From Prevotella sp. (lineage in GTDB: Bacteria; Bacteroidota; Bacteroidia; Bacteroidales; Bacteroidaceae), in NCBI GenBank assembly GCA_017455495.1, contig JAFTAR010000181.1, forward strand, positions 1 to 46,195: a stretch of 46,195 nt of DNA, in the 5' to 3' direction. The translations under genes and the position numbers were made by a program. The notes below the pieces were generated by a model. The model saw nothing but the letters and a program-made list of their open reading frames with translations, ran no database searches and had not been told where the DNA came from. Within the stretch, counting starts at the first letter, position 1. The number at the start of each line of letters is the position of its first letter. Positions 3,972 through 31,354 of this stretch are shown in pieces.

Positions 3972-5018
3972 ATGGCACAACAGACAATGAAAGACATCCT
4001 TAACCGGATGCTGAACCACGAGGAACTCACTCGTGAGGAGATGAAAACCATCCTTATTGGCATAACCCAGAGCGAATACCCAACGGAACAGATCACCGCC
4101 CTGCTCACCGCCCTGCAGATGCGCGGCGTCACCGTTGAGGAACTGCTGGGATTCCGCGACGGCATCTTAGAGACGGGAGTTCCCGCCATCCTGAATGCCG
4201 ACCGCTATATAGATGTGGTAGGCACCGGCGGCGACCGCAAGAACACCTTCAACATCTCAACGACCGCGTGCTTCGTTATTGCCGGTGCTGGCTATAAGGT
4301 GGCCAAGCACGGCAACTATGCCGCCACCTCCGTCAGCGGAGCCTCAAACGTGATACAGCACCACGGCATAAAGTTCACCGATGACATTGACAAGCTGAAC
4401 CGCTCGCTCAACGAAGCCGGCATAGTCTACCTCCATGCACAGCTCTTCGCCCGTGCCATGAAGTTCGTAGGCCCTATACGCAAGGCGCTGCAGTTTCCCA
4501 CCATCTTCAACCTGCTCGGCCCGCTGGTAAACCCCAGCCAGCCACAATGCCAGCTCTTAGGCGTGGCCAACCTTGACCAGATGCGCCTCTACCATCAGGT
4601 CTACCAGAAGATTGGCATAGACTACGGCATAGTGAACAGCATTGACGGCTACGACGAGATCTCGCTGACGGGCGACTTCAAGGTCACCGCAGGCTTCCAA
4701 GCCACCGTGCCCGACGGTTCTCCGTCGGGTTACGAGCGAATCTTCTCGCCTGCCGACTTAGGCTTCAGCATAGCCAAGCCCGAAGAGCTGGTTGGCGGAG
4801 CCACCGAGGAAGAGGCCGCCCGCATCTTCGACTCCGTACTTGAGAACCGCGCCCTGCCTGCCCAGAAGAACATAGTGCTGGCCAATGCTGCCTTTGGCAT
4901 ACAGGTGCTGGAAAAGGGCCTGAAGGACATTGACGAGTGCATAGCCATTGCCCGCGAGAGCATTGACAGCGGCGCTGCCCTCCGCACTTTCAAGAAATTC
5001 GCAGAGCTGAACTGTTAG
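3972..5018 (+). CDS. trpD: Anthranilate phosphoribosyltransferase
   Basis: This enzyme transfers the phosphoribosyl group of PRPP to anthranilate, the second tryptophan-pathway step. The 348-residue length is normal. GTGGDRKNTFNIST is the PRPP-binding glycine-rich loop. KHGNYAATSVSGASN corresponds to the KHGNR-SS anthranilate/PRPP motif, with Tyr in place of the usual Arg. GPLVNPSQP follows in the C-terminal domain. It starts 12 bp after trpG and ends 33 bp before trpC, consistent with one transcript. It is a stand-alone TrpD, not fused to TrpG as in some proteobacteria. A long open frame on the opposite strand is treated as a shadow. Confidence 0.96.
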   Translation: MAQQTMKDILNRMLNHEELTREEMKTILIGITQSEYPTEQITALLTALQMRGVTVEELLGFRDGILETGVPAILNADRYIDVVGTGGDRKNTFNISTTACFVIAGAGYKVAKHGNYAATSVSGASNVIQHHGIKFTDDIDKLNRSLNEAGIVYLHAQLFARAMKFVGPIRKALQFPTIFNLLGPLVNPSQPQCQLLGVANLDQMRLYHQVYQKIGIDYGIVNSIDGYDEISLTGDFKVTAGFQATVPDGSPSGYERIFSPADLGFSIAKPEELVGGATEEEAARIFDSVLENRALPAQKNIVLANAAFGIQVLEKGLKDIDECIAIARESIDSGAALRTFKKFAELNC

Positions 5019-5051
5019 TCGGAATAACGACGTTTCGAAATATCGGAAAAC

Positions 5052-5819
5052 ATGAACGACATCCTGCAACAAATAGTTGCCACCAAGCGCGAGGAGCTGG
5101 CCGCGATGCGCCGGCCTAAGCCCTCGCTGCGCCAGGCACTTACAGACTCGCCGACAGGCATCATTGCCGAGTTCAAGCGCCGCTCGCCCTCGAAGGGCTG
5201 GATAAAGGAGGAAGGACGTGCCGACATTATTCCGCAGTCCTACCAGCAGAACGGAGCCGCAGCACTTAGCATACTGACCGACAAGCACTACTTTGGCGGG
5301 CACGACGACTTCGTTCGCCAGGCCCGCAGGAGCGGTGTCACCATACCCATCCTCTACAAGAACTTCGTTATTGACGAGATGCAACTCTACGAGGCTGTGC
5401 TGTGTGGTGCCTCTGCCGTGCTGCTGATAGCTGCCTGCCTCAGCAAGCAGGAGTGCAAAACACTCCTGAGCACTGCTCACGGGCTGGGGCTTGAGGTGCT
5501 TCTTGAGATGCACTCCGAACGGGAACTTGAATATGCCCGACTGGGTCCCGACCTCTGTGGCATCAACAACCGCAACCTCGGTTCCTTTGTCACCGATGTA
5601 GCTACCTCCTTCCGCCTGGCTGAGAAGCTGCGCTATGCCGTGGGAGAAGGCGCTGACGCTCCCGTTCTGGTAAGCGAGAGCGGCATAAGCAGTCCCGCCA
5701 CAGTGCGTGAACTCCGCGAGGCCGGCTTCCGGGGCTTCCTTATTGGCGAGACATTCATGAAAGAAGCCGACCCGGGACTGGCCCTGAACAACTTCATTGC
5801 AGAACTGGAAAAAATATAG
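5052..5819 (+). CDS. trpC: Indole-3-glycerol-phosphate synthase
   Basis: This (beta/alpha)8-barrel enzyme of 255 residues closes the indole ring by converting CdRP to indole-3-glycerol phosphate. Visible signatures are IIAEFKRRSPSKGWI near residue 38 (catalytic Glu/Lys and phosphate contacts), LTDKHYFGG, LYKNFVID, LLEMHSE, GINNRNL and VSESGI. The length fits a monofunctional TrpC. No TrpF domain is fused to it, and no separate trpF lies between it and trpA, only 4 bp away. In related genomes trpF usually sits in exactly this position, so its absence is notable. Confidence 0.96.
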   Translation: MNDILQQIVATKREELAAMRRPKPSLRQALTDSPTGIIAEFKRRSPSKGWIKEEGRADIIPQSYQQNGAAALSILTDKHYFGGHDDFVRQARRSGVTIPILYKNFVIDEMQLYEAVLCGASAVLLIAACLSKQECKTLLSTAHGLGLEVLLEMHSERELEYARLGPDLCGINNRNLGSFVTDVATSFRLAEKLRYAVGEGADAPVLVSESGISSPATVRELREAGFRGFLIGETFMKEADPGLALNNFIAELEKI

Positions 5820-5823
5820 TATT

Positions 5824-6606
5824 ATGAACAAGATAAACAAGCTGTTTGCTGAGAGGCCTGCAGACAAGAAGCTGCTGAGCCTGTATTTCTGTGCCGGATG
5901 CCCCACCCTCGACGGCACTGCCGACGTGATTCTCGCCATGCAGAGCCGCGGCATTGACATGATAGAAGTGGGCATACCCTTCAGCGACCCCCTGGCCGAC
6001 GGTCCTGTCATACAGACGGCAGCCACGCAGGCACTGAGGAACGGCATTAGTGTGCAGAAGATTTTTGACCAGCTGAAAGCCGTCAAGGACAAGGTGACCA
6101 TCCCCCTTGTACTGATGGGCTACCTAAACCCCATTCTCCACTACGGCATAGAGGCATTCTGCCAGAGCTGCGCTGAGGCCGGCGTGAGTGGAATGATAAT
6201 CCCCGACCTGCCCTTCAGCGACTATCTTGACACGGTGAAGCCCGTGGCCGACCGATACGACCTCAGGGTTATAATGCTAATCACGCCGGAAACCAGCGAG
6301 GAGCGCATCCGCTTCATTGACGACAATACCGACGGCTTCATCTACATGGTAAGCTCGGCCGCCATAACGGGCGCCCAGAAGAGCTTCGACGAACAGAAGC
6401 AGGAGTATTTCCGCCGCATCAACGCCATGAACCTGCGCAATCCCCGCATGATAGGCTTCGGCATAAGCAATGCCCAGACGCTCAAGGCTGCCCAGGACAA
6501 TGCGGCAGGTGCCATCATCGGCTCAAAGTTTGTTACGCTGCTCAACGAAAGCGAGGGCGACGCTAACGCCGCCCTCGACATGTTGTTCGAAGCACTTAGG
6601 AGTTGA
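5824..6606 (+). CDS. trpA: Tryptophan synthase alpha chain
   Basis: The alpha subunit cleaves indole-3-glycerol phosphate to indole and passes indole to the TrpB subunit. The barrel motif IEVGIPFSDPLADGP holds the two catalytic acids (Glu and Asp). MGYLNPILHYG, GMIIPDLPFSD, GFIYMVSSAAITG and IGFGISNAQ complete the signature set. I used the ATG at 5824 (MNKINKLFAERP, 260 residues). An ATG 9 codons upstream lies within trpC and would add a non-conserved tail. It is the last gene of the operon and is followed by a hairpin shared with the convergent cysK. The partner trpB is not in the window and may lie beyond the IS. Confidence 0.96.
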   Translation: MNKINKLFAERPADKKLLSLYFCAGCPTLDGTADVILAMQSRGIDMIEVGIPFSDPLADGPVIQTAATQALRNGISVQKIFDQLKAVKDKVTIPLVLMGYLNPILHYGIEAFCQSCAEAGVSGMIIPDLPFSDYLDTVKPVADRYDLRVIMLITPETSEERIRFIDDNTDGFIYMVSSAAITGAQKSFDEQKQEYFRRINAMNLRNPRMIGFGISNAQTLKAAQDNAAGAIIGSKFVTLLNESEGDANAALDMLFEALRS

Positions 6607-6619
6607 CTTCTAAACTTTT

Positions 6620-6662
6620 CGCTTTTAAGGACTGTCTCTAAAGGGGATAGTCCTCAAAAGCG
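6620..6662. terminator. Convergent trpA/cysK terminator hairpin
   Basis: CGCTTTTAAGGACT (6620-6633) pairs with AGTCCTCAAAAGCG (6649-6662), 14-bp arms with one mismatch and a 15-nt loop. The A- and T-rich flanks would give U-rich tails in both directions. The right arm lies inside the last codons of cysK. Confidence 0.65.
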
Positions 6663-7585
6663 TAGAGCACGGTGCTGAGGTAGCGCTCGCCCGTGTCGGG
6701 CAGCAGCACCACGATTCTCTTGCCCTTGTTCTCCGGGCGCTTTGCCACCTGAATGGCAGCATAGAGGGCGGCTCCTGCGCTGATGCCTACCAGGAGACCT
6801 TCCTGCTGGGCTATCTCACGGCCCGTGCGGATGGCATCGTCGTTTTCCACATCAAACACCTCGTCGATGACATCGGAATTATAGGTCTTGGGAACAAAGC
6901 CTGCGCCTATGCCCTGAATCTTGTGCGGGCCGCTCTGTCCGCCGTTCAGCACCGGGCTTGACTTTGGCTCCACGGCAATCACCTTCACATTGGGATTCTG
7001 CTCCTTCAGGTATTTTCCTGCACCGCTGATGGTGCCGCCTGTGCCCACGCCTCCAATGAAGATGTCTACAGCGCCATCGGTGTCGCGCCAAATCTCAGGT
7101 CCCGTGGTGGCATAGTGCTTGGCTGGATTGGCGGCATTCTCGAACTGCTGCAGGATGATGCTGCCGGGAATGGAGTCGCGAAGCTCCTCGGCAGCGCGGA
7201 TGGCACCTGGCATGCCGTCTTTGCCAGAGGTGAGGCGCACCTCCGCACCATAGGCCTTCACCAGGTTGCGGCGCTCCACGCTCATGGTCTCGGGCATGGT
7301 AAGGATTAGATGGTAGCCCTTCACGGCACTTACCAGGGCCAGTCCTACACCAGTGTTTCCGCTGGTGGGTTCAATAATGGTTGCACCGGGCTTCAGTATG
7401 CCTTTCTGCTCGGCATCCTCAATCATTGCCAGCGCTATGCGGTCTTTCACACTGCCTCCGGGGTTGAAATATTCCACCTTGGCTATTACCGGGGTCTCAA
7501 GACCCTTTGCCTCTGAATATTTGTTGAGCTCTAAGAGTGGGGTGTTGCCGACGAGCTCGGTCAGCTGCTTTGCAATCTTACTCAT
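6638..7585 (-). CDS. cysK: Cysteine synthase A (O-acetylserine sulfhydrylase)
   Basis: A PLP enzyme that makes cysteine from O-acetylserine and sulfide. The 315-residue form from the ATG at 7585 is normal for CysK. Visible motifs are GNTPLLEL at the N-terminus, [11 protein letters not shown] with the PLP lysine, [11 protein letters not shown] for the substrate loop, [12 protein letters not shown] for the PLP phosphate cup, and GISAGAAL near the C-terminus. An upstream ATG would add 29 residues but lies across the promoter, so it is rejected. AAGGATT precedes the chosen start. It is convergent with trpA and is probably a single-gene transcript. Confidence 0.96.
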
Positions 7586-7643
7586 AATCCTTACCTTTTT
7601 ATTTAAATTAAACGTTACTTTTTTCTGCTTCTTTATTGCAGTG

Positions 7644-7674
7644 CAAAGGTACGGCGATTCCTGCACCCCCACAA
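7644..7674 (-). promoter_or_regulatory. cysK promoter, TTG-N20-TACCTTTG
   Basis: On the minus strand TTG (7674-7672) and TACCTTTG (7651-7644) are 20 bp apart, about 60 bp upstream of the cysK ATG. Confidence 0.7.
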
Positions 7675-7723
7675 TACCCTCAATGAGGCATTCTGCATAC
7701 CATGAGTTTGGTATGCCTCGCGG

Positions 7724-8032
7724 CTATCTCTTGTCGGGAATGCCATAGTCGGCCCACCGCTCCTGGGGATAGAAGCCCTTGAGGGTCTTCTTCTTGTCGG
7801 CATAAGCTTCCTTGACACGGGTCCACACGTCGTTCATGTGCTTCACCTTTGGCGACAGCTCGTCACGCAGGCGGTCCACCTCGGCGTTGGCAGCCTCCAG
7901 CTCCTTCAGGTTCTGCTCCATCTCGGCCACTTCGTTGTTGGTCACTCCGCTGCCGTTTCCGTTGAGGTGCTTGTGCAAACCCTCAAGGAGATTACGGCTC
8001 TTCTCAATCTGTAGTTCTACTGTCTTTGACAT
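7724..8032 (-). CDS. Small coiled-coil hypothetical protein
   Basis: A charged 102-residue protein without a signal peptide or membrane segment, so probably cytoplasmic. Residues about 35-75 (EVAEMEQNLKELEAANAEVD and following) have heptad-like Leu/Ala spacing that suggests a coiled coil. The C-terminus YPQERWADYGIPDKR is distinctive and aromatic. I do not recognise a named family. It is upstream of cysK on the same strand but each gene has its own promoter, so joint function is not implied. It is supported as a real gene by its canonical promoter and by amino-acid composition unlike a shadow frame. Confidence 0.75.
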   Translation of the reverse strand: MSKTVELQIEKSRNLLEGLHKHLNGNGSGVTNNEVAEMEQNLKELEAANAEVDRLRDELSPKVKHMNDVWTRVKEAYADKKKTLKGFYPQERWADYGIPDKR

Positions 8033-8571: not shown

Positions 8572-10008
8572 ATGAAGAAGAGCACGTTTTTTGTGGCTTT
8601 TTGCCTTTTGCTTGCCGTTTGTGGGGCAAGTGCTCAAACTGTATATAATGTTATGGACTTCGGTGCCCGCGGCGATGGCATCACGGACGATGCCCAGGCC
8701 CTGCAGCAGGCCATAGACCGCTGCACCGAGGAGGGCGGCGGCCGCGTGCTGCTGCCCCGCATGCGCACTTTCCTCTGCGGCCCCGTTGAGCTGAAGAGCA
8801 ATGTGGAGCTTCACATAGAGAGCACCGCCACGCTGCTGTGCAACCCCGATGAGAGCATTTACCAGCAGAGCGCCTTTGGCGAGAACCGCGGCGAGGGCAT
8901 GATGTGGCTCTGGGCCAGGAACGCCCGCAACCTGAGCATTACCGGCCGAGGCACCATCCACGGCAACGGCATACGCTTCATGGGCCAGGAACTCTCTGAC
9001 AGCTACGAGCTGAAGCCGCTGGCCGACCCTACGTTTGACCCGCGCCCCCACGTGCTGACACTGATAGCCTGCGACAACCTGCTCATCCGCGATGTCACCA
9101 TACGCGAAGGAGCCTACTGGACGGTGCACCTCGTGGGCTGCAACGTGGCCCTCATTGACGGCATCAACCTGCTAAACGACCTGAAAATACGCAACGGCGA
9201 CGGCATTGACCTCGACCACTCGAAGAACGTGCGCATATCGAACTGCCACATCACCAGCGGCGACGACTGCATCTGCCTGAAGAACCGCCGTGAGTTTGCC
9301 GAATATGGTGCCTGCCACGACATAGTGGTGACCAACTGCACACTGGCCTCGCGCTCGTGTGCCATCAAGATAGGGTCGGAGAACATGGACAACATATATA
9401 ATGTGTTGGTCACTAACTGCATCATCACCCAGTCGAACCGCGGCATAGGCATACAGAACCGCGACGAGGGCACCGTTACCGACGTCACCTTCTCGAACAT
9501 CATGATGGACCTTCAGCTGTGGAGCGACGTGTGGTGGGGCAAGGCCGAGCCTATCTACGTTACCAGCTACCCCCGTGCCGACGGCAACCACAAGGATGCC
9601 AACTGGCGCTTCCCGCATGGTGAGACTCAGGGCCGCTGCGGGGCCGTGAGCCGCATCACCTTCCAGAACATTCAGGCCACCAGCGAGAACGGCTGCTTCA
9701 TTGGCGGCGACACTCCCGACAAGGTGAGCGACATAACGCTGCAGAACGTAACGCTGAACCTGCGCCGCACCACCACCTACGCCAATGGCCTCTACGACCG
9801 CCGTCCCTGCCGCGACGAGGGCTTTGTCACGGCCGGAGTGTTCGGTGTGTATATAGAGCAGGCCCAGAACGTAGGCATTGAGCAGCTCACCGTGAACAAC
9901 TACCTCTCGGCCTACGAGGGCAAGGTCCACTACCCCACTAACACCAGCAATCCCGTGCACCGCTTCCGAAACTTCATCAACCGCGCGGGGGCAGCTTTAG
10001 CCCCCTAA
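8572..10008 (+). CDS. GH28-family secreted glycosidase (polygalacturonase-like)
   Basis: Residues 1-22 form a signal peptide ending ASAQ. The rest is a right-handed beta-helix opening with VMDFGARGDGITDDAQALQQ, typical of pectate-lyase-fold GH28 proteins. NGDGID (208-213) and SGDDCICLK (229-237) retain the three catalytic aspartates of GH28. The usual GHG histidine motif is replaced by SRSCAIKIG, and the RIK motif by GIQ. This points to a divergent subfamily, possibly acting on substituted or rhamnogalacturonan-type substrates. It lies directly before SusC/SusD and likely trims pectic oligosaccharides in the periplasm. The last residues RAGAALAP are encoded by a palindromic repeat, so the native C-terminus may have been altered. 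GH28 membership is fairly firm; the substrate is inferred. Confidence 0.85.
   Translation: MKKSTFFVAFCLLLAVCGASAQTVYNVMDFGARGDGITDDAQALQQAIDRCTEEGGGRVLLPRMRTFLCGPVELKSNVELHIESTATLLCNPDESIYQQSAFGENRGEGMMWLWARNARNLSITGRGTIHGNGIRFMGQELSDSYELKPLADPTFDPRPHVLTLIACDNLLIRDVTIREGAYWTVHLVGCNVALIDGINLLNDLKIRNGDGIDLDHSKNVRISNCHITSGDDCICLKNRREFAEYGACHDIVVTNCTLASRSCAIKIGSENMDNIYNVLVTNCIITQSNRGIGIQNRDEGTVTDVTFSNIMMDLQLWSDVWWGKAEPIYVTSYPRADGNHKDANWRFPHGETQGRCGAVSRITFQNIQATSENGCFIGGDTPDKVSDITLQNVTLNLRRTTTYANGLYDRRPCRDEGFVTAGVFGVYIEQAQNVGIEQLTVNNYLSAYEGKVHYPTNTSNPVHRFRNFINRAGAALAP
9987..10005. repeat. Palindromic repeat forming the 3' end of the GH28 gene
   Basis: GGGGGC (9987-9992) and GCCCCC (10000-10005) flank AGCTTTA. 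The related palindrome at 10125-10141 shares the CCCCCTAA core. Confidence 0.65.
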
Positions 10009-10124
10009 GATTTAATAATGAAGAAGTAGAAAATAACATTAACAAAGTAATTAATAGTATTAAAGAAAGAATCAATCAGATTATTAACCAGATGGAGGAA
10101 AGAACACGTGTTCAGACCCCCAAC

Positions 10125-10141
10125 CCCCTAATTTAGGGGGC
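10125..10141. repeat. Palindrome in the GH28-susC gap
   Basis: CCCCCTAATTTAGGGGG lies 18 bp before the susC-like start codon. It may act as a partial terminator or mRNA 5' structure between GH28 and the transporter genes. The remaining gap (10009-10124) is AT-rich, with no gene seen. Confidence 0.6.
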
Positions 10142-10158
10142 TTAAAAAACATTTTTTT

Positions 10159-13100
10159 ATGCAAAACGTACAAAAAGCAATGAGCCGCGCACTCACGCTT
10201 GCCTTGCTCCTCATGGTAGCCACCGTGAGCTGGGCACAGCAGCAGATAGGCGGCACAGTGAAAGACGCCCAGGGCGAAGCCCTCATCGGCGTTAGCGTGA
10301 AGCAGGCCGGCACCAGCAACGGTGTCACTACCAATGCCAACGGCCAGTTCTACATCAACGTGCCCCAGGGAGCAAACCTGGAGTTCACCTACATTGGCTA
10401 CAACACCCAGACAGTGCGCGCCAGCAACGGCATGCAGGTGGTGATGCAGGAAGACAACCAGCTGCTTGAGGAAGTGGTGGTGGTGGGCTACGGCACCATG
10501 CGCCGCAAGGACGTCACCTCGTCAATAACCACTATCAAGTCTGACGACCTGAACAAGGGTGTGTTCACAGACCCCGCTTCCATGCTGCAGGGCAAGGTGG
10601 CCGGTCTTACCATTACCACCAGTGGCGACCCCACCGGCACGCCAAGCATCACTCTGCGTGGTGCATCGTCGCTGCGCAGCGGAGCCATGGAGCCCTACTA
10701 CGTCATTGACGGTATTCCCGGCGTAGACATCTCAATGGTGGCTCCCGACGACATTGAGAGCATTGACGTGCTGCGCGACGCCTCTGCCACTGCCATCTAC
10801 GGCTCTAAGGCTGCCAACGGCGTGATCATCATCACCACCAAGAGCGGACAGGAAGGCCGCACCAACGTGACCTACAACGGCTACGTGGCTTTCGACCGCG
10901 TCATGAAGACTCTTGACATGGCATCGGCCAGCGACCTGCGCAACAGCGGTATCGACATCTCCGCACAGGATGGCGGCGGCGACACCGACTGGCAGGACGA
11001 AGTGCTGCGCACCGGCATAAGCCACAACCACAACGTGAGCATCAGTGGCGGCAACCAGCACACAAAGTACATGGGAAGCATCAACTACATGCAGCGTAAC
11101 GGAACCGTGCGCGGAACAAGCATGAACCGCGTCAACGCCCGTACATTGCTCACGACAAGCATCCTTAAGGACCGCCTCACACTCAGCTTAGGAGTCAATG
11201 CCATGCAGGGGCGCTTCAACGGCGTGCCCATGAGCCAGTCGTCGGGCAGCAATGCCGGCAAGAGTGTCCTTGATGCCATGTACTACTACTCGCCAACCAA
11301 CCCCGTACGCAATGCCGACGGCTCCTGGTACGAAAGCTATATCGGCTCGGCCAACTACAACCCCCTGTCAATGGTTTACGAGGACAGCAACCGCAACGAG
11401 TGGCGCCGCATACAGTACATCACCAAGGCTACCCTGAAGATTGTTGACGGCTTTACTTGGAATGCCAACTACAGCTATGACAGCGGACAGAACACCTACA
11501 GCTGGTATCAGACACACCAGACTCAGATGGACAAGGGCAAGGACGGACAGGGTCACCGCGACACCTACTTGCGCCACAACCAGACCTTCGAAACCTACGG
11601 AAACTTTGAGCACACCTTCGCTCAGCTGCACAAGATTGGACTCATGGCCGGTTACACCTGGGAGGAGCGCTACAGCGGCGACGGATTTGGAGTTACCACA
11701 TACAACTACTTCAATGACGCCACCTCATTCTACAACCTGCGCAACGGCAACAGCATTGACGGCATTCAGGCTGTCAGCGGAGCCACACCAGAGACAGTGC
11801 GCAACATCTCTTTCTACGGTCGTGTGAACTATTCGTTCGCCAGCCGCTACATGCTGCAGGCAACAATCCGCCGCGACGGTTCATCGGTGTTCGGCAAAGA
11901 CCACCGCTGGGGCACATTCCCCTCTGTCTCGGCTGCATGGAACATTGCAGAGGAGAACTTCATGAAGAACCAGAACCTCTTCGACCAGTTGAAGCTTCGC
12001 GTAGGCTATGGTGTAAGTGGTAACGCCATGGGCTTCGGTGCCTACGATGCCATCACGCGCTATGCCGTAAACGGCTCTGTCTTTGACTACATCATGGCCG
12101 ACGGCACCACAAAACAAATGTACGGCATAGGAGCCACAAACAACGGAAACCCCGACCTGAAGTGGGAGTCGACAGCCATGCTTAACATTGGCCTGGACTT
12201 CGCCTTCCTCGGAAGCCGCATCAACGGTAGCATTGAGTTCTATAACAAGAAGACCAGCGACCTGATTCACGGCTATGCTGTTTCAACCAACATCTATCCC
12301 CTGAACTGGATTCGCGCCAACGTGGGCGACATCACCAACCGAGGCATAGAGTTCACGCTGAACGTAGTGCCCGTGAAGACAAGAGACTTCACATGGCAGT
12401 CTACACTGAACCTCTCACATAACATGAACCGTGTAGACAAACTGTCGAACGCACAGTTTGCCGTAGACTTTATTGAGCCTGGTGAAGGCGAGCCCAACAT
12501 AGGCGGCATCTCTTCTAACGGCAATGTTCAGCGCATCATGGAAGGCGAGGCTCTTGGCACATTCTGGAGCTATCAGCACGCAGGATACGACAACAACGGC
12601 AACTCTGTGTTCTTTGTCCATGACCTTGATGCACACAAGGATGCCGACGGCAACGTTCAGGCTGACACCTACCAGGACGCAAACGGAAACTGGGTAACAT
12701 CATCACCGCTCTACGGCGACAAGACAAAGATAGGCAGCGCACAGCCAAAGCTGGTTTACGGCTGGAACAATACCCTAAACTACAAGAACTGGAACCTCAC
12801 CGCATTTTTCCAGGGTACTATCGGCAACAAGATAATGAACGCCACCCGCGCTCACTTCATGTTCCAGGGTCACCTGGCAGGAGGCAAGAACGTGCTTCAG
12901 GATGCTATCAACGACCCTCAGTGGCGTGCTGATGCCAACGCTCACATTCCAAGTGACAAGTACCTTGAGAACGGCAGCTACCTGCGCTTAGCATCTCTCT
13001 CGCTGGCCTACACCTTCAAGAACCTTGGCGGTTGGGCTGAGAGCCTTCAGGTTTACGGAACGGCCAACAACCTCTTCACCGTCACCGGCTACAAGGGCAT

Positions 13101-13701
13101 TGACCCGGAGGTTAGCCTTGGCGGCATTGCTCCCGGCATTGACATGCGTGAAGTTTTCTATCCCCACAACCGCACATTCATGGTCGGCGTGAAGGTTAAC
13201 TTTGCCGCCGGTGCTGAGCACCGCGCTGCTGCAGCTCCCGCTCAGACCGTCTATGTAACCGACAACAGCGAGATTGACCGCCTCAACGGAGAGGTGAACC
13301 GCCTCCGCCAGGAGCTTAACGCCTGCAACGCCCGCCAGCCCGAGACACGCGTAGTGACTCAGACTCAGGCTGTGACCTTCCCCTACCTCGTGAACTTCAC
13401 CATCGGACAGACCGATGTTGTAAACCGCGAGAAGGTGAACCTTGAGGCCGTGGCTACCATGATGAAGCAGACGCCTAACGTGAAGTACAGCGTTATGGGA
13501 TATGCCGACCAACAGACCGGCAGTGCCGACCGCAACGCCCAGCTGGCCCGCGAGCGTTCACAGAACGTATACGACATACTCGTCAACCAGTACGGTGTGC
13601 CTGCCTCACAGCTCGTTCGCGACAGCCGTGGCGGTGTAGACGTGATGTACCTCAACGACCCGCAGCTCTCACGCTCGGTCATCATCTCAGAAGTAAGATA
13701 G
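10159..13701 (+). CDS. SusC/RagA TonB-dependent transporter with C-terminal OmpA-like domain
   Basis: A signal peptide (1-26) is followed by a carboxypeptidase-regulatory-like domain (about 29-103), a TonB-box/plug start EEVVVVGYGT (104-113), a plug, and a 22-strand-type barrel. The barrel ends at residue 1015 in the usual way (NRTFMVGVKVNF). A normal SusC stops there. This protein continues with an Ala/Pro linker, a short coiled coil (IDRLNGEVNRLRQEL) and an OmpA-like peptidoglycan-binding domain to residue 1180. GYADQQTGSADRN and LARERSQNVYDIL provide the Asp (1117) and Arg (1133) expected to bind diaminopimelate. It should import oligosaccharides with the SusD encoded 31 bp downstream. The tail suggests anchoring to the cell wall. 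The fusion is continuous in the sequence, but an assembly chimera cannot be excluded. Confidence 0.93.
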   Translation: MQNVQKAMSRALTLALLLMVATVSWAQQQIGGTVKDAQGEALIGVSVKQAGTSNGVTTNANGQFYINVPQGANLEFTYIGYNTQTVRASNGMQVVMQEDNQLLEEVVVVGYGTMRRKDVTSSITTIKSDDLNKGVFTDPASMLQGKVAGLTITTSGDPTGTPSITLRGASSLRSGAMEPYYVIDGIPGVDISMVAPDDIESIDVLRDASATAIYGSKAANGVIIITTKSGQEGRTNVTYNGYVAFDRVMKTLDMASASDLRNSGIDISAQDGGGDTDWQDEVLRTGISHNHNVSISGGNQHTKYMGSINYMQRNGTVRGTSMNRVNARTLLTTSILKDRLTLSLGVNAMQGRFNGVPMSQSSGSNAGKSVLDAMYYYSPTNPVRNADGSWYESYIGSANYNPLSMVYEDSNRNEWRRIQYITKATLKIVDGFTWNANYSYDSGQNTYSWYQTHQTQMDKGKDGQGHRDTYLRHNQTFETYGNFEHTFAQLHKIGLMAGYTWEERYSGDGFGVTTYNYFNDATSFYNLRNGNSIDGIQAVSGATPETVRNISFYGRVNYSFASRYMLQATIRRDGSSVFGKDHRWGTFPSVSAAWNIAEENFMKNQNLFDQLKLRVGYGVSGNAMGFGAYDAITRYAVNGSVFDYIMADGTTKQMYGIGATNNGNPDLKWESTAMLNIGLDFAFLGSRINGSIEFYNKKTSDLIHGYAVSTNIYPLNWIRANVGDITNRGIEFTLNVVPVKTRDFTWQSTLNLSHNMNRVDKLSNAQFAVDFIEPGEGEPNIGGISSNGNVQRIMEGEALGTFWSYQHAGYDNNGNSVFFVHDLDAHKDADGNVQADTYQDANGNWVTSSPLYGDKTKIGSAQPKLVYGWNNTLNYKNWNLTAFFQGTIGNKIMNATRAHFMFQGHLAGGKNVLQDAINDPQWRADANAHIPSDKYLENGSYLRLASLSLAYTFKNLGGWAESLQVYGTANNLFTVTGYKGIDPEVSLGGIAPGIDMREVFYPHNRTFMVGVKVNFAAGAEHRAAAAPAQTVYVTDNSEIDRLNGEVNRLRQELNACNARQPETRVVTQTQAVTFPYLVNFTIGQTDVVNREKVNLEAVATMMKQTPNVKYSVMGYADQQTGSADRNAQLARERSQNVYDILVNQYGVPASQLVRDSRGGVDVMYLNDPQLSRSVIISEVR

Positions 13702-13732: not shown

Positions 13733-15439
13733 ATGAAAAAGAATAATATCAGCATTTTCCTCGCTGCTGGACTGGTTTGCTGCGCTGCCAGCACAGCACT
13801 CACCAGCTGCACGGATTTGGATGTCGAGCCAAGGGGAGAGTACACCGAGTACCCATCCTCAGAGGAAGCCGTGGAAGCAAAGATGGCCGATGTCTATTTC
13901 CATTTACGTGGCACTCTTGGTCGCCGCTATATGGAGGCCCAGGCCCTGTCAAGCGATGAATGGGTAGGAATCAGCTTCGACGGAGACTATGCCGACGGTG
14001 GTATCTACGCACAGTGCGCCCTACACAACTTCAACGCATCAAGTGCATGCACAGGATGGTACGAGGATGTGACTTCGGGCATTACAAAAGCAAACAAGGT
14101 AATAGTAGACATGGGCGGTGAAGAGAACGATGCTACCGCGCAGGCACGTGCCATGAGGGCATTCTACAGTTTCATCCTTATGGACAGCTATGGCGACTCG
14201 CCCATTCTGAACCGTCTTTTTGACGAGACAGAACAGATTGACCGCTCGCCCCGCGCCGACGTGGCCCGCTGGATAGAGAGTGAGCTGAAGGCCATCATTG
14301 ACTTGCTGCCAACCAATGTTGATGCCAGCACATACGGCAAGCCAACACGCTACATGGCAGAGGCTCTGCTCGCAAAGCTCTACATCAACTGGCCTGTATA
14401 CACTGCCGCCAGCGTTACTGCCTACGATGCCGCTGCCTACAGCAACGAGCACCTGCAGGACGTAGTGACTCTTGTTGACGACATCATTGCATGCGGCAAG
14501 TTCGACCTTGCTGAGGGTGCTAACGGCTACCGCTCAAAGTTCTGGCCTGACAACGGCTCACAGATTAAGGACTTTATCTACGCTATGCCATACGACGCCA
14601 TCACCGCACAGGGATTCCAGTACTGCCGTCCGCGCATCTGGCGTCAGGGACGTAACGACGGCAATGGCGGTCCTGGCTACTTCGGAAGCGACATTGGCCA
14701 GTCTACCGGCGGAAACTTCAGCATTTCGCCCGAGTTTGCCGACGTGCTTCTGGCTCTTAGCAGTGACGACCGTCAGGAGAATATCCTCGCCGGTAAGATC
14801 TATATGTACGACCCCAACACGTATGCACGCACCAGCACTCCATACACCTATAAGGGTGAGGAGGTTGTACTTGACCGCACCATTCGCCTGAAGTACACTG
14901 ACAAACAAAACAACACACACTACGTGGAGTGGGGTTCGCCCGTCACCGACTATCCCGCCGACTGCGCCATTCTGAACACAGGCAAGGACGTGAAGGGCTG
15001 GAGCCAGGGCTACAAGTCAGTGAAGTACTTCGTCATCCGCGAGGACTTCATCAACGGCCGTAACCAGAGCAACGACCTGCCCATCTTCCGTCTGGCCGAC
15101 ATGCTGCTGCTCAAGGCAGAGGCCATCGTTCGCGGTGCACAGCCCACCAACAACCAGACTGCCCAGAGCCTCTTCAACCAGATTCGCTCATACGTCAACG
15201 CTCCCACCATCAGCGGCACTCCGTCGCTGGAGGACATCTATCAGGAGCGCGGCCGCGAGCTGTTCGACGAGAACTGGCGTCGCAACGACATGATTCGCTA
15301 CGGACACTTCGAGGATGAATACGGATTCCACCGCCGCGGATTCCCCACAGCACGCTTCGACAAGGAGTGCCGCGTGTTCCCAATCCCGCAGGATGTGCTC
15401 AACAAGAACACCAACTGGAAACAGAACGCCGGCTACTAA
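13733..15439 (+). CDS. SusD/RagB-type substrate-binding lipoprotein
   Basis: This outer-membrane lipoprotein (568 residues) is the lid partner of the preceding SusC. The signal peptide ends in a lipobox with Cys at residue 26 (TALTSC). The body has the TPR-rich SusD pattern, including a RAMRAFYSFILMDSYGD-like helix and the conserved C-terminal segment with RGRELFDENWRRNDMIRYG. The ATG at 13733 gives the signal peptide directly. A start 10 codons upstream would add a non-signal tail. Direct GAACATTGA-like repeats fill the short gap after susC. A strong terminator follows, so GH28-susC-susD form one locus without a local regulator gene. Confidence 0.95.
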   Translation: MKKNNISIFLAAGLVCCAASTALTSCTDLDVEPRGEYTEYPSSEEAVEAKMADVYFHLRGTLGRRYMEAQALSSDEWVGISFDGDYADGGIYAQCALHNFNASSACTGWYEDVTSGITKANKVIVDMGGEENDATAQARAMRAFYSFILMDSYGDSPILNRLFDETEQIDRSPRADVARWIESELKAIIDLLPTNVDASTYGKPTRYMAEALLAKLYINWPVYTAASVTAYDAAAYSNEHLQDVVTLVDDIIACGKFDLAEGANGYRSKFWPDNGSQIKDFIYAMPYDAITAQGFQYCRPRIWRQGRNDGNGGPGYFGSDIGQSTGGNFSISPEFADVLLALSSDDRQENILAGKIYMYDPNTYARTSTPYTYKGEEVVLDRTIRLKYTDKQNNTHYVEWGSPVTDYPADCAILNTGKDVKGWSQGYKSVKYFVIREDFINGRNQSNDLPIFRLADMLLLKAEAIVRGAQPTNNQTAQSLFNQIRSYVNAPTISGTPSLEDIYQERGRELFDENWRRNDMIRYGHFEDEYGFHRRGFPTARFDKECRVFPIPQDVLNKNTNWKQNAGY

Positions 15440-15597: not shown

Positions 15598-16746
15598 ATG
15601 GCAAAAGAGAAGACAAAAAAGCTGGGAAACCCCTTTGTATTCAAAGGTTATGAAGGACCAGAGTATTTCTGCGACAGAACGGAAGAGACGGAAATGCTTG
15701 TTTCAAGCCTGCAAAGTGGCATGAACATAACACTCATTTCTCCACGGAAAATAGGAAAAACGGGACTAATAAAGCACGTTTTTCACCAGATTTCGCAGAA
15801 GAACAAGGATGCGGTATGCCTCTATGTTGACATTTACTCCACACAGAGCAAGCATGAGTTTGTGTCGCTTTTCTGCCAGTCGTTTGTAGAAGAAGTGATA
15901 GAGCGCGAGAAATCGCTGTTCACTAAGGCATTAGACAGATTCCGCGGATGGCGACCCACTGTTACCGTCGACCCCATGACAGGAGCCTTGCAGGTTTCTG
16001 TAAGCATTGAGCAACAGCACACCGACAACACCCTCAAAAGCATTTTCGATTATATTGAGCACCTCAATAAGGATGTTTATATTGCCATAGACGAGTTCCA
16101 GCAGGTGGCCGACTATGCAGAGAAGGGTACTGAAGCCTTGCTGCGCAGCTATATTCAGTTCAGCCATGCCCGCTTCATCTTCGCAGGCAGTAAGCAGCAC
16201 CTTATGAGCGAGATGTTCCTCTCACCGAAGCGACCTTTCTACAACAGCACACAGATAGTCAACCTGAACCCGCTTCACGAGAAAGTGTATTTTAGCTTCG
16301 CACGGAGTTTCTTCGAAAAACGGAAGGGAGGACTCAGTGAGGAAGCTTTCCATTCCCTGTACAACCTTTTTGACGGTGTGACCTGGAACATACAGATGGT
16401 GCTTCACCGGCTTTACGACACCTACACAACTGTGGAGAACGAACAGCAAGTACTTATAGCAACAGATACGGTTATAAAACTGATGTCGGTCAACTTTGAA
16501 GCCATGCAGCCGCTGCTCACACCGGCTCAGACAGACCTGCTCAAGGCTATTGCCAAATCAGAGCCTGTGGCACAGCCCCTCAATGGCGATTTTATCAAAC
16601 GCTACGACCTGCCCTCGCCCAGCACCATCAAGTCGGCCTTGGAAACGCTGCAAAACAAGGAGCTGGTCTATCGCACCGACAAGGGCTATATCATCTACGA
16701 CCGCTTCTTCTCCCTATGGCTGAAGCGCACCTTTGGCCCCTACTGA
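15598..16746 (+). CDS. AAA ATPase 1 (ATPase_2-like, with C-terminal winged helix)
   Basis: A cytoplasmic 382-residue P-loop protein. Walker A is ISPRKIGKTGLI (around residue 50) and Walker B is VYIAIDEFQQV (around 160). FAGSKQHLMSEMF is the sensor region, shared with the next ATPase. The last 90 residues, including LPSPSTIKSALETLQNKELV, look like a winged helix. Such proteins are common in Bacteroidales and lack a settled function. Regulatory, NTPase-toxin and mobile-element-related roles have all been considered for relatives. It is a clear paralogue of the gene that follows. The 14-bp repeats upstream suggest autoregulation, which is inference. It is not obviously linked to the SusC/D locus because a terminator separates them. 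Confidence 0.85.
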   Translation: MAKEKTKKLGNPFVFKGYEGPEYFCDRTEETEMLVSSLQSGMNITLISPRKIGKTGLIKHVFHQISQKNKDAVCLYVDIYSTQSKHEFVSLFCQSFVEEVIEREKSLFTKALDRFRGWRPTVTVDPMTGALQVSVSIEQQHTDNTLKSIFDYIEHLNKDVYIAIDEFQQVADYAEKGTEALLRSYIQFSHARFIFAGSKQHLMSEMFLSPKRPFYNSTQIVNLNPLHEKVYFSFARSFFEKRKGGLSEEAFHSLYNLFDGVTWNIQMVLHRLYDTYTTVENEQQVLIATDTVIKLMSVNFEAMQPLLTPAQTDLLKAIAKSEPVAQPLNGDFIKRYDLPSPSTIKSALETLQNKELVYRTDKGYIIYDRFFSLWLKRTFGPY

Positions 16747-16874: not shown

Positions 16875-18005
16875 ATGGATAAGAGCTTTGTTTATGGAGT
16901 AGCCGTCACTGACTACAACTTCACGGGTCGCGAGGAAGAGACACGGCGACTGAAGCAGAACTTCAAAAATGGCATTAACTCCATATTGATTTCCCCCCGC
17001 CGCTGGGGCAAGACTTCATTGGTGAACCACGTATGCCAGCAGATGGATGATGACAATATTATCATAGTGCGCTTAGACATCTTCGGCTGCAAGAGCGATT
17101 ATGATTTCTACAACGCCCTGGCATCGGCCGTGCTGAAACAGACGGCCACGAAGAATCAATTATGGATGGAGGAGGCCAAAGACTTCCTGGCTCGCCTTAC
17201 CCCAAGAGTCAACATTCCACTTGACCCTACATCAGACATCAGTCTGTCACTCGGTATAACTCCAGAGACACACAGGCCTGAGGACGTTCTCAATATGGTT
17301 GAGACGATTGCCCAGCGCAAGAACCGCCATATTGTTGTCTGTATTGACGAATTTCAGCAGGTGGGTGAATTCGAGAACACAAAGTCAGTCCAAGCCACCC
17401 TGCGTTCCGTATGGCAGCACCATCACTTGACGTCATACTGCCTGTTTGGCAGCAAACAGCACATGATGAGCAATATATTTCTGAATCGCAGCATGCCTTT
17501 CTACCAGTTTGGCGACCTGATGTGGCTTGAAAAGATTCCCACTTCCGACTGGACAGACTATGTCATTAGTCATTTCGAGCGTGCCGGCAGACATATCTCG
17601 GAGCAGATGGTGTCACGCATTTGCGAGACGGTTGAGCTTTACCCGTCATATGTGCAGCACCTGGCATCAATAATTCTAAACCGCACACCCGAGGGAGATA
17701 CCGCCACGGAGGAGCTACTGCCGCCATCCGTCAAGGAACTGATAAGCACGAACGAAGCACTCTATATGCAACAGATAGAACCCCTGTCTGGTTATCAGAT
17801 GAACCTGTTGCGTGCCATAGTCTCTGGCATACACTCTGGCTACAATGAAAAGAAAGTCCGGATGCAGTACGACCTGGGCAGTCCCTCTAACCTTGTACGT
17901 CTACGCGATGCTCTTATTGAGCGCGACATCATCTATTCTGAGATGCGCCAGCTCTATATCACTGACCCCGTGTTCTCGCTTTGGTTCAGACAACGTTTCC
18001 TATGA
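16875..18005 (+). CDS. AAA ATPase 2 (paralogue of ATPase 1), overlapping GH92
   Basis: A 376-residue protein with Walker A ISPRRWGKTSLVN, Walker B IVVCIDEFQQV and the FGSKQHMMSNIFLNRSMPFY segment that matches ATPase 1. The C-terminal part (LGSPSNLVRLRDALIERDII) again looks like a winged helix, and the last residues DPVFSLWFRQRF match the RFFSLWLKRTF end of ATPase 1. It has its own palindrome-covered promoter. Its TGA stop overlaps the ATG of the following GH92 gene (ATGA at 18002-18005), so translation may be coupled. That makes the GH92 gene part of its transcript. The cellular role is unknown; a sensor or regulator of the downstream glycosidase is only a hypothesis. Confidence 0.85.
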   Translation: MDKSFVYGVAVTDYNFTGREEETRRLKQNFKNGINSILISPRRWGKTSLVNHVCQQMDDDNIIIVRLDIFGCKSDYDFYNALASAVLKQTATKNQLWMEEAKDFLARLTPRVNIPLDPTSDISLSLGITPETHRPEDVLNMVETIAQRKNRHIVVCIDEFQQVGEFENTKSVQATLRSVWQHHHLTSYCLFGSKQHMMSNIFLNRSMPFYQFGDLMWLEKIPTSDWTDYVISHFERAGRHISEQMVSRICETVELYPSYVQHLASIILNRTPEGDTATEELLPPSVKELISTNEALYMQQIEPLSGYQMNLLRAIVSGIHSGYNEKKVRMQYDLGSPSNLVRLRDALIERDIIYSEMRQLYITDPVFSLWFRQRFL

Positions 18006-20721: not shown

Positions 20722-20753
20722 TTTGGTAAAGAAGATTAAAAACTATAACTTTG
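20722..20753 (+). promoter_or_regulatory. Promoter of the phosphatase-GH92 gene, TTTG-N20-TAACTTTG
   Basis: TTTG at 20722-20725 and TAACTTTG at 20746-20753. The first ATG (20760) is only six bases beyond the -7 box, so the mRNA would start at or next to the initiation codon. Confidence 0.75.
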
Positions 20754-20759
20754 CGGACT

Positions 20760-23700
20760 ATGGGAAAGATGACAACATACAAGACTCTGAGGCGGACGGC
20801 TATATCGCTGTTCCTTTGCCTCTTTGCCCTCCTGCCTGTACATGCGCAGTATGAGAGGCTTGGCGGCGTTTACTATGCCTACCCCGCAGACCATACGCAG
20901 ATGGCCGAGGCACCAGAAGGCTACGAGCCGTTCTATATATCGCACTACGGCCGCCACGGCTCGCGCTGGCTTCCCAGCGACCAGCGCTATGAGTGGGTGA
21001 TGAGCCATTTTGAGGATGCCTCAAACCTTACTAAGCTCGGCAAGAGCGTGCGCAAGCGGCTGGCAAAGATATGGCGGAATGCACGGGGCAACGGCGGCAG
21101 GCTCACACCCCTTGGAGGCCGCCAGCACGAGGCCATCGCTACGCGCATGTACCATAACTTTCCGCAGCTCTTCACCACAGAAGCCCGCCTGACGGCCCAC
21201 TCCAGCACCGTGGACCGCTGCCGCCAGAACATGCTCCACTTCGTGTCACGCCTGCAAGCCCTGAATCCACAGCTTTGCATCACGCCTGTTACAAGCGAAG
21301 AGGACATGGCGTGGATAGCCTACACTTCGCCTGAAGAGAAAGCCCTTGAGAACCGCACAAGGATTCCCCTTGGAATAGACCCGCACAGGCTGACAAGAGC
21401 CCTCTTCATTGACGACTCAAAGGTGGAACAGCCCGACAAGCTGCTCTCCGAGCTGCACACCATTGCGTCGGACATGCAGGACGTAGAGCTGCGTGTGTCG
21501 CTCTATGACATCTTCACCGAGGAGGAGCTGCATGCCGTCTATGCCGCCAACAACGAGCGGATGACCATCTGCAACGGCGACGTTCCCTCAAACGATGGCA
21601 TTCCGGCCCGCTCGGCCGTCTCCCTATGGCGCCGCATAGAGGCCAAGGCCGAGGCCGCCATTGCCAGCAGAGGCTTGGGTGCCGACCTGCGATTCGGCCA
21701 CGACACCAACCTCTACCGCCTGCTCACCCTCATGCAGGTAAACACCAACGGCATGGGCATGGACGAGATACTGCCCATGGCAGCCAACCTCCAGATGATA
21801 TTCTACCGGAATGAGGCCGGCGACGTGAAGGTGCAGCTGCTACACAACGAGAAAAGCATTGGCTTCTACTCCTGGCAGCAGCTCAAGGAGCAGGTGAACA
21901 GCCGCATACACTATTTGGAACACATCAGGCAGCTCTCTGCCCTGAACACCATGGTAGGCACAGCTCCCGCCAACACCCGCACCGCCGGACTCTTCGGCAA
22001 GGGCAGCGAGGAGCATGGCCAGACGCTGCCCGCCGTCCTGGTGCCCAACGGCCAGACCTTCTGGACGCCGCAGACGCAGACCACCGAGCGCAAATGCATA
22101 GCCCCCTACTACTATCAGGACAGCCTTTTCTACGGCATCCGCGCCAGCCACTGGCTGGTGGGCGGCTGCACACAGGACTACGGCTCGTTCACCGTAGGGG
22201 CCTTCAAGGGCGGCAATGGCGAGGGGAGCCTGGCCACGCCCTTCAGCCATGGCGACGAGACCTCCCACCCCAATTATTACGCCCTGAGCCTGCCACGCGA
22301 GCAGATGATGATTGAGCTTACTGCCCTGAGCCATGCGGCCATCATGCATGTCACTCCCCTTTACGACGGGCTGGCCGACATAGTCCTCACCGTCAACAGC
22401 GACGAGCAGCAGGCCACCATCAGCATGCAGGACGGCCGGGTCTACGCCTCAAACCCCGTCCACCGCATCTATCAGGGCTGGGGCGAGCCGGCCGGCTTCA
22501 GCGGCCACTTCGTGCTGCAATTCTCCGACAGTCTCGTGGCAAGCCGTCAGGAGGGCCAGACCCTTCGCCTCACTTTCAAGGCCGTTAGCCGCTGCCCCAT
22601 AGTGCTCCGCATGGCCACATCGTTCACCAGCCGCGAAGGTGCCGAGCGCAACCTGGAGGCTGAGGCCCGCTGCACCTTCAACCAGATGCAGCAGCAGTGT
22701 GCCGACATCTGGGTGAAGCGCCTGCATACCATTGACGTAAGCGACCCTGACACCGCCCTTGTAAACCAGTTCTATGGTGCACTCTACCGCGCCTCCTTCC
22801 TGCCCCGCGAGATGAGCGACGCCGACGGCTGCTATCCCCGCTTTGCCGGCAATGCCAATTGCGAATCGCCAAGTCGTAAAAGCTACGGCGACTTCTCCAT
22901 GTGGGACACCTACCGCGCCCTCCACCCCTTGCTCTGCATCATTGCCCCAGAAGAGAACGGCAACATGATGCAGTCGCTTGTGAACATGGCCACCGAAGGC
23001 GGCTGGCTGCCCATCTTCCCCTGCTGGAACAGCTATACCGCAGCCATGATTGGCGACCATTGCTCCTCAGTTTTGGCCGACGCCTACGTGAAGGGCATCA
23101 GGGGCTTCGATGCCAGGGCGGCATACAGCGCCATGAGGCAAAACGCCTTCAGCACTCCCTCGCCACAGGACTATCTTGACGGCAAGGGGCGCCGCGCCCT
23201 CACCTCCTACTTGCAGTATGGCTACATACCGCTGGAGGACTCTGTCAAGGAGGCCTTCCACCAGCAGGAACAGACCAGCCGCACGCTGGAGTATGCCTAC
23301 GATGACTTCTGCGTGGCCCAGATGGCGCATGGACTACAGACTACAGACTCTGAACGGGACTTTCATGAGCTGATGCAGCGGGCAGAGAACTGGCGCAACG
23401 TCATCAACCCCACGACAGGCTATGCCGACGGGCGCCATGCCGACGGCTCGTGGGAGGGCAACGGGGACCTGGTGCACCGCAAACCCTACATCACCGAGGG
23501 CGCCACCTGCCACTACACCTGGTATGTGCCTCACAACAGTCCCGGCCTCATTGAACTGATGGGCGGCAGGGAGGCCTTCGTGCAGAAGCTTGACTCCATG
23601 TTCACCGAGGGCCGCTACTGGCACGGCAACGAACCATGCCACCAGGTGGCATGGCTCTACAGCCTGGCCGGGCGCCCCGACCTCACCCGTCAGCGCACGG

Positions 23701-24077: not shown

Positions 24078-24123
24078 CTGCATTCGAAATTTGCTGTAAC
24101 TTTGCAGCAAAATTCGAATGCAG
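24078..24123. promoter_or_regulatory. 19-bp inverted repeat centred on the -7 box of ATPase 3
   Basis: CTGCATTCGAAATTTGCTG (24078-24096) and CAGCAAAATTCGAATGCAG (24105-24123) are inverted with one mismatch. The 8-nt loop is TAACTTTG itself, the -7 box. A protein bound here would cover the promoter core. TTTG at 24073-24076 is 20 bp upstream of the box, a canonical pair. Confidence 0.75.
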
Positions 24124-24132
24124 GGCTGTTTT

Positions 24133-24819
24133 ATGGAAGAATGTGTAAAGAGAGAACAATACCTCAATCGCCTGATAGTCAGGAGGGATAACGGTATGAT
24201 TAAAACGGTGACTGGGCCGCGGCGTGCAGGTAAGTCTTTCCTGCTGAATCCTATCTACAAGGATTACCTGTTGGAGCATGGCATCCCAGAAGACCATATC
24301 ATCAGTATCTCATTTGACGTAGAGGATGAGGACACTCCAGAGGAGTTGCTCGAGCGCGAGAAGCTGAAGGAGTTTCTCTACTCCCGTATTGTATCGAAAA
24401 CGGAGCCTTATTATGTATTCCTTGATGAGATTCAGGAAGTTCAGGATTTCGAACGTATCGTAAACGGACTGAACAAACGGCCTAATGTCGATGTGTACAT
24501 AACCGGCAGCAATTCGAAATTTCTCTCCAACGACATCAACACCATCTTCCGTGGGCGCAGCGATGAGGTGAGCATCATGCCATTCACCTTCAGGGAGTTT
24601 TGCCAGGATCGTACGGAATCGGTCAGCGAGTTGTGGAAAGAATATTACACCTACGGAGGACTACCTGCACTCCGCAGGATGCCGACTCCCGAACAGAAGA
24701 CCACCTATCTGCAACGGCTTTGGAAGAAAACGTACCTTGACGATGTGGTGGAAAGGCGGCATCTACTACACAGGCTTGTTCCAGTTCCTGACCAGCGACA
24801 AGATAATAGAATGACATGA
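24133..24819 (+). pseudogene. Truncated ATPase 3 (AAA_14/DUF4143 type)
   Basis: The 228-residue product starts MEECVKREQYLNRLIVRRDN and has Walker A TGPRRAGKSFLL, Walker B YYVFLDEIQEV and ITGSNSKFLS, all typical of AAA_14 ATPases with a DUF4143 C-terminal half. Relatives are about 400-430 residues. Here the conserved region stops at TYLDDVVERRH and a frameshifted tail of about 17 residues follows. In another frame GIYYTGLFQFLTSDKIIE with a stop begins at the same place and resembles the extreme C-terminus of such proteins. This suggests an internal deletion of roughly 190 codons. An ATG at 24118 lies in the palindrome and is less likely. The region 24820-24960 has a 40-codon open stretch without a start and a duplicated GAGGCACGCAGGTA, with no gene recognised. 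Confidence 0.75.
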
Positions 24820-31198: not shown

Positions 31199-31240
31199 TT
31201 GATGATAATTAGTTAGTAAAATAAGGTAATAAACTGGGGA

Positions 31241-31271
31241 CAAAGGTAGCGATAAAAAAGGAAACAGCCAA
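31241..31271 (-). promoter_or_regulatory. Promoter of secreted protein copy 1, TTG-N20-TACCTTTG
   Basis: On the minus strand, TTG at 31271-31269 and TACCTTTG at 31248-31241, 42 bp before the ATG. Confidence 0.7.
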
Positions 31272-31354
31272 GAGAATCCTTCTTTTTCTTTCTCACGGAG
31301 GTCAAAAAAAAGGGGAAAAGGTGAAAGCGCACAAAAAAACAATATTTTTTCAAT

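Follow-up and report, generated by a model that had tools for sequence, protein, structure and literature searches.

The 46,195-nucleotide window analysed here (positions 1 to 46,195 of contig JAFTAR010000181.1, GenBank assembly GCA_017455495.1) is contig C122 of a metagenome-assembled genome (MAG) of Prevotella sp., denoted G000 (71% complete, 211 contigs), and carries a gene in which a complete SusC/RagA transporter continues in frame into an OmpA-like domain. The fusion is confirmed and is wider than first noted, being found as a variant of SusC and in one other TonB-transporter family. Judged from sequence comparison, the gene probably encodes the SusC of a SusCD importer furnished with a predicted cell-wall anchor, the tail representing an exchangeable C-terminal peptidoglycan anchor on TonB transporters. 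The tail is homologous to the C-termini of stand-alone OmpA proteins and behaves as an exchangeable module, which several TonB-transporter families, mainly in Prevotella, appear to have exchanged, gained or lost. An open-access literature search, subscription journals and preprints lying outside its scope, turned up no description of a fusion of this kind.

Architecture of the fusion gene

The open reading frame (ORF) 10159-13701 encodes 1180 amino acids and contains no internal stops; its coordinates, frame and length are those of the first-pass annotation. Its parts are as follows.

10159..13701, + strand: susC-ompA fusion gene, 1180 amino acids, protein P0001 (ORF, Pfam, TIGR04056)
10159..10236, + strand: probable signal peptide, residues 1-26 (read by eye)
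10246..10482, + strand: CarboxypepD_reg-like N-terminal domain, residues 30-108 (Pfam PF13715)
10465..10494, + strand: TonB-box-like stretch LLEEVVVVGYG (alignment of 26 fusions)
10504..10824, + strand: plug domain, residues 116-222 (Pfam PF07715)
10825..13203, + strand: beta-barrel up to the terminal strand ..VGVKVNF, ending at residue 1015 (TIGR04056; tailless orthologues stop here)
13204..13260, + strand: Ala/Pro-rich linker, residues 1016-1034 (translation)
13261..13332, + strand: short coil (EIDRLNGEVNRLRQEL), residues 1035-1058 (heptad pattern)
13372..13698, + strand: OmpA-like peptidoglycan-binding domain, residues 1072-1180, Pfam 1080-1171 (Pfam, alignments)
13507..13509, + strand: Asp1117 codon, predicted diaminopimelate pocket (alignments, PMC7192894)
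13534..13536, + strand: Asn1126 codon, predicted diaminopimelate pocket (alignments, PMC7192894)
13555..13557, + strand: Arg1133 codon, predicted diaminopimelate pocket (alignments, PMC7192894)

Pfam divides the protein into CarbopepD_reg_2 (residues 30-108), Plug (116-222), TonB barrel (374-972) and OmpA (1080-1171). The NCBIfam model of SusC, TIGR04056, spans residues 29-1015 and positions 2-981 of its own 981, scoring 765.3 bits against a cut-off of 368.25; the SusC/RagA signature TIGR04057 scores 62.7 bits against 46.2, the plug PF07715 is present, and the next gene encodes a SusD (PF07980, E 3.6e-24). Since TIGR04056 reaches its own last position there, the barrel is taken to end at residue 1015. 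SusC/RagA proteins end at the last barrel strand, and here 165 residues follow it; as the model is otherwise matched in full, the protein is considered a variant of SusC. Residues 1016-1180 comprise an Ala/Pro linker, a coil and then an OmpA domain, in frame with SusC, the last scoring 40.1 bits for PF00691 (gathering cut-off 27.2, E 4.7e-10). An OmpA fold is predicted from profile matches to solved domains, among which PDB 9uu2, a chain named 'Major outer membrane protein', comes closest (E 4.5e-30). At the other end of the protein, the stretch LLEEVVVVGYG keeps V106-V108, G110, Y111 and G112 invariant in 26 aligned fusions of SusC families; we presume it to be a TonB box, a name given to it by no program.

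In PorE of Porphyromonas gingivalis, diaminopimelate is held by the side chains of Asp576, Asn584 and Arg591 (PMC7192894), whose counterparts in the fusion are D1117, N1126 and R1133. This trio is invariant in 30 of 30 aligned tails, in all 47 rows of a second alignment (four of them stand-alone OmpAs) and, by a pattern check, in 60 of 60 fusions with tails of more than one OmpA lineage. The first-pass annotation had placed the barrel terminus at residue 1015, had recognised linker, short coil and OmpA domain behind it and had proposed D1117 and R1133 as pocket residues; all of these elements are where it put them, N1126 being the third member of the pocket.

Heptad core positions 0, 3, 7 and 10 of the coil are hydrophobic in all 51 tails of the main type, and core position 14 is Asn in 28 of the 51. 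An Asn in the core is a feature of two-stranded coils. SusCD complexes are dimers (PMC7618045), so that pairing of the two tails is plausible. The same observations suit the proposal that the tail is an OmpA-like fold no longer engaged in anchoring, which instead helps the transporter to assemble or dimerise, coil and domain together acting in oligomerisation or in contact with chaperones; the existence of a family-A SusC with an OmpA-like tail devoid of the pocket Asp (locus L093) likewise favours it. Nevertheless, the Asp, Asn and Arg are kept in 60 of 60 fusions across more than one OmpA lineage, and tailless orthologues show that assembly does not need the tail, which makes this an improbable explanation of the module. 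In locus L093, ORF 4360-7749 encodes a family-A SusC that runs into a short linker rich in Val and Lys and then into an OmpA-like segment with another residue in place of the pocket Asp (YASPEG). This is another, short type of tail, the position of which in the OmpA tree is unsure, and it is perhaps a non-binding version.

Distribution, exchange, gain and loss of the tail

In the own genome, two of the 21 SusC places exceeding the TIGR04056 cut-off are tailed, namely the window fusion and one on contig C92, with bodies 28% and tails 67% identical. Over the genus, 43 of 398 genomes (own included) possess a tail at 52% or higher identity to that of the window, in 54 places: 51 full-length fusions in 41 genomes and three cut by contig ends (G408:C2, G201:C99 and G305:C123), which were left out of the full-length set. 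Weaker tail types are present in at least the numbers that such genome scans return. Among the matches listed in the family-level scan (251 genomes, 234 of other genera), five genomes have main-type tails in frames longer than 1000 amino acids, these being the own genome, G083 and, in one other genus, three genomes whose frames measure 1235-1259 amino acids, and the best-scoring stand-alone OmpAs, of 422 and 426 amino acids, belong to two genomes of a further genus. Outside the genus, the matches listed in the order-level scan (393 genomes) are stand-alone proteins, about 370-520 amino acids long, besides a few shorter frames. Plasmid records gave 167 entries with matches, all below 60% identity; in the five listed, the match extends no further than residue 1015.

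In GTDB species genomes, 192 loci were confirmed by a scan, and the best 80 of them were kept as named loci. A TonB-transporter body precedes the tail in 75 of the 80, including L114 with a weak body match (32% over 123 residues), and 70 of these lie in ORFs exceeding 1000 amino acids; of the remaining five, four are stand-alone OmpAs and L104 is truncated too early for its body to be judged. Apart from the four stand-alone OmpAs, the loci (76) come from records that bear the name Prevotella, Prevotellaceae or Bacteroidales and are labelled MAG or uncultured. An animal or organ is given in 20 of these 76 record titles and is a ruminant in all 20, and the RUG labels of many other named loci presumably denote rumen genomes; the ruminant link is an association and not an enrichment. 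One of the tailed loci, L181, encodes at 8654-10453 a family-B transporter whose frame is open for 600 amino acids only, away from the contig edge, and which is so interrupted or mis-assembled upstream.

This recurrence, which goes far beyond chance, bears on the proposal that the gene is an assembly chimera or a gene-calling artefact. The fragmentary state of G000, the MAG or 'uncultured' origin of all named relatives and the lack of the tail in 20 genomes with four or fewer contigs, where about two would be expected, speak for it; the same tail type in 43 of 398 genomes and in records of several projects (RUG, RGIG, UBA and SRR bins) and codon-level conservation on either side of the join speak against it. 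A chimera was rejected on the recurrence of the tail type, and we give an artefact practically no credence. The first-pass annotation had considered the case that no relative shares the fusion, which the 43 genomes contradict, and had called a cell-wall-anchored TonB transporter unusual; the latter needs changing, as the arrangement recurs in one group, all stated hosts of which are ruminants, and reaches a TonB-transporter family other than SusC.

At 50% identity, the 56 full-length fusions (51 of the main type and five of family E) fall into seven body families, A-G. For families A, B, C, E, F and G, a single representative was scored with TIGR04056, and each exceeds the SusC cut-off (six of six). 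Family D (10 fusions) is not SusC, its representative scoring 60 bits vs 368 and being assigned by Pfam to OMP_b-brl_4. The next gene encodes a SusD in 46 of the 56 fusions (Pfam) and a BACON-domain protein, within 3-171 bases, in all 10 tailed family-D loci (L055, L056, L058, L059, L061, L067, L069, L076, L088 and L092). These family-D partner genes give weak OB-fold matches, mostly near or under the Pfam cut-off, and possess a Cys aligned with the lipobox Cys of SusD; the BACON protein is possibly a partner of a different kind.

Bodies and tails differ in their relationships. In 60 random cross-family pairs out of 1002, bodies are on average 33% and domains 64% identical. Families intermix on starred branches of the tail tree, as exemplified by C+F+B (L080, L068 and L077), B+C (L071 and L075) and A+D (L084 and L092), and approximately unbiased (AU) tests reject a single tail clade for each of the four larger body families (p 0.0022 for A, 3e-47 for B, 1e-4 for C and 0.0032 for D). 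For ten pairs of different families residing in the same genome, tail identity averages 69.9% vs 64.4% after permutation, and a mean as high as the observed one arose in 78 of 20,000 permutations; three of these pairs are far above background, three moderately above and one equal to it.

Orthologues lacking the tail terminate with the final barrel strand. The nearest of them, L012/L243, are 85.5% identical to tailed L078, and in this pair, the one aligned at the DNA level, the match runs to the last barrel codon and then ends. On body trees, changes between tailed and tailless state number two in A (20 rows), six in D (27 rows, four forced by starred branches) and seven in B+C (50 rows, six forced by starred branches). 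These were quick trees made with no bootstrap; they omitted L012, L101 and L102 as repeats of L243, L010 and L011, together with L246 and L247 (below 44% identity), and the B+C tree, made with no mixture model, contains one flagged long-branch pair. In 13 close pairs chosen by hand, the ratio of nonsynonymous to synonymous substitution rates (dN/dS) ranges from 0.01 to 0.24 in tails and from 0.04 to 0.22 in bodies, indicating that the tail is under purifying selection as a maintained part of the protein.

The tails of family E (L094-L098), L255-L257 and L258 group with stand-alone OmpAs of Prevotella, apart from the main type. The OmpA tree with 28 stand-alone proteins, which took 20 of the 51 main-type and three of the five family-E tails and whose stand-alone list is a lower bound, requires six fused/alone changes, five of them forced by starred branches. 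This topology indicates that at least one other OmpA lineage has been captured separately. The main-type tail is joined in the tree by stand-alone OmpAs of other genera (L176, L177, L179 and L180), in a grouping compatible with transfer either way; these nearest stand-alone OmpAs of other Bacteroidales are 55-57% identical to the tail. The stand-alone OmpA of the own genome has 31% identity over query residues 52-156, and a recent origin of the tail from it was rejected on this ground. The earlier suggestion that linker and domain resemble a stand-alone Prevotella OmpA is thereby refined: the tail is homologous to stand-alone OmpA, and the protein of the own genome is not its closest kin. The gene fusion with the C-terminal half of OmpA, also suggested there, is strongly supported by tailed and tailless relatives with the join exactly at the SusC stop (one pair), by purifying selection on the tail (13 pairs) and by the pocket kept in 60 of 60. 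In locus L258 (1900-7706), a D-like TonB transporter bearing an OmpA tail is followed directly by an ORF that resembles, by eye, an LptF/LptG permease.

The possibility of a functionless relic, or of neutral read-through into an adjoining ompA fragment, accords with the patchy presence of the tail, with its gain and loss among close orthologues and with a tail label in family D that clusters little more than it does when shuffled (an equally low value in 27 of 500 shuffles). The dN/dS of 0.01-0.24 in the tails, on which a neutral relic was rejected, the conserved pocket and the repeated capture of separate OmpA lineages leave it very little probability.

Predicted anchoring, its precedents and the bracing alternative

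According to the anchor reading, the OmpA domain would hang into the periplasm off the last barrel strand and grip peptidoglycan non-covalently through D1117, N1126 and R1133, while the coil would pair both tails of the SusCD dimer. The N-terminal TonB machinery would be unaffected and transport would continue with the barrel tethered; invariance of the TonB-box-like stretch in the 26 aligned fusions implies that energised import should persist. The importer and its lipoprotein partner would thus be held in wall-attached outer membrane, neither shed into vesicles nor drifting, and an extra contact between outer membrane and wall may arise as a by-product.

Four known systems offer comparison. 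With SusC/RagA (TIGR04056) the protein shares residues 1-1015 as a complete member and an adjoining SusD, and it differs in the 165 residues added where the model and the tailless orthologues end. Stand-alone Bacteroidales OmpAs, the nearest found being those 55-57% identical, have the same coil and domain behind a small barrel, which consists of eight strands. In the fusion a SusC barrel, together with its plug and a TonB-box-like stretch, occupies this place, SusC-type barrels having 22 strands (PMC12611786). RmpM of Neisseria, like the putative anchor, is a wall-binding protein of OmpA type, associates with TonB receptors and affects iron use (PMC8497027), but it is a separate protein acting in trans, whereas the putative anchor of the fusion sits in the transporter chain. 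For an RmpM-type tether, the link to a TonB transporter in one chain is shown by the gene and the association with the wall is what we infer. PorE, of the type IX secretion system, is an outer-membrane protein of Bacteroidota whose C-terminal OmpA domain was solved with a peptidoglycan fragment and has the same three contact residues (PMC7192894); it differs in being a lipoprotein with CpoB-, TolB- and carboxypeptidase-like parts and no transporter. It has been proposed to tether outer membrane to wall, and pal genes were not detected for Bacteroidetes in the database used by the study in question (PMC12204202). OmpA lacking its wall-binding part enters vesicles more (PMC8284480).

Relying on these precedents (RmpM, truncated OmpA in vesicles, and pal in Bacteroidetes), we regard retention or positioning of the importer as the most likely benefit. 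Its main rival assumes that the tail does anchor, yet mechanically: it would brace the barrel against the pull of TonB or cluster TonB receptors at wall gaps and so accelerate uptake, in the manner of RmpM but in cis. RmpM is reported to form complexes with three TonB receptors (LbpA, TbpA and FrpB), and when it is mutated, iron-dependent growth on lactoferrin declines (PMC8497027); in addition, all 26 aligned fusions retain the TonB-box-like stretch. Both observations agree with bracing. Against it, the tail is missing from 19 of 21 SusCs of the own genome and from close orthologues with the same GH28-SusC order, and we hold bracing to be unlikely. Fixing the Sus complex in place and bracing it had both been raised in the first-pass annotation, and both are conjectural.

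The reading of the tail as an exchangeable wall anchor has to accommodate several observations that weigh against it. The spacing from Asp to Asn and Arg is +9/+16 here vs +8/+15 in PorE, one residue longer; the longer spacing is common to PDB 9uu2, the nearest solved relative. The 19 tailless SusCs of the own genome, and tailless orthologues, do without the module; since two of 21 are tailed and orthologues manage without, transport does not depend on the tail, and a general role is disfavoured. Nor are the two tailed SusCs set apart by codon bias, taken as a possible sign of abundance, the effective number of codons being 37.2 and 37.7 vs 32.0-46.9 in 18 of the 19 others (for one interrupted gene the longest open part was used); of the ribosomal genes looked for in the own genome as a reference, S12 lies on a contig that breaks off immediately and L2 was not detected. 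Three of the ten same-genome pairs fall below the background mean. Finally, none of the 20 genus genomes with four or fewer contigs is tailed, about two being expected at 43/398, and every named example is a MAG or an 'uncultured' record.

A broader proposal, to which we assign even chances, is that in ruminant Prevotella an exchangeable C-terminal anchor cassette tethers to the wall TonB transporters that would otherwise move freely, having spread by recombination between SusC and an Oar-like non-SusC family, partly within a genome, and from more than one OmpA lineage, with importers acting as membrane-wall tethers where no tol-pal locus is identified. SusCD importers are usually regarded as anchored by the barrel and partner lipoproteins only. 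A recurring and selectable wall anchor, if true, would mean that some bacteria control the position of importers and their shedding into vesicles, and it bears on how Bacteroidota fix the outer membrane to the wall. Natural pairs in which one orthologue has the tail and the other lacks it, with identities reaching 85.5%, make the question of anchoring directly testable.

Gene neighbourhood and other genes of the window

The fusion gene is flanked by the following genes.

8572..10008, + strand: GH28 (pectinase-family) gene directly upstream of the fusion (Pfam)
13739..15439, + strand: susD partner, 566 amino acids, 37 bases past the susC stop (Pfam SusD_RagB PF07980, E 3.6e-24)

GH28 lies upstream of family-A susC in eight of eight tailed loci scanned (19 named in total) and in five of five scanned loci that are tailless or otherwise tailed. 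Preceding tailed and untailed family-A SusC alike, it is not a neighbour that the tail tracks.

Further along the forward strand, at 20751-24020, an ORF of 1089 amino acids combines a partial histidine phosphatase (residues 313-365) with GH92N and GH92 (418-1081) and is possibly an enzyme fusion. Scattered between SusD and GH92 genes in the utilisation locus are three AAA-type ATPase genes (15598-16746, 16875-18005 and 24118-24819, + strand). On the reverse strand, three large ORFs (28109-31396, 32037-34403 and 35002-37245) contain InlB-type repeats, Ig and chitobiase C-terminal domains and a Pel9A-like beta helix.

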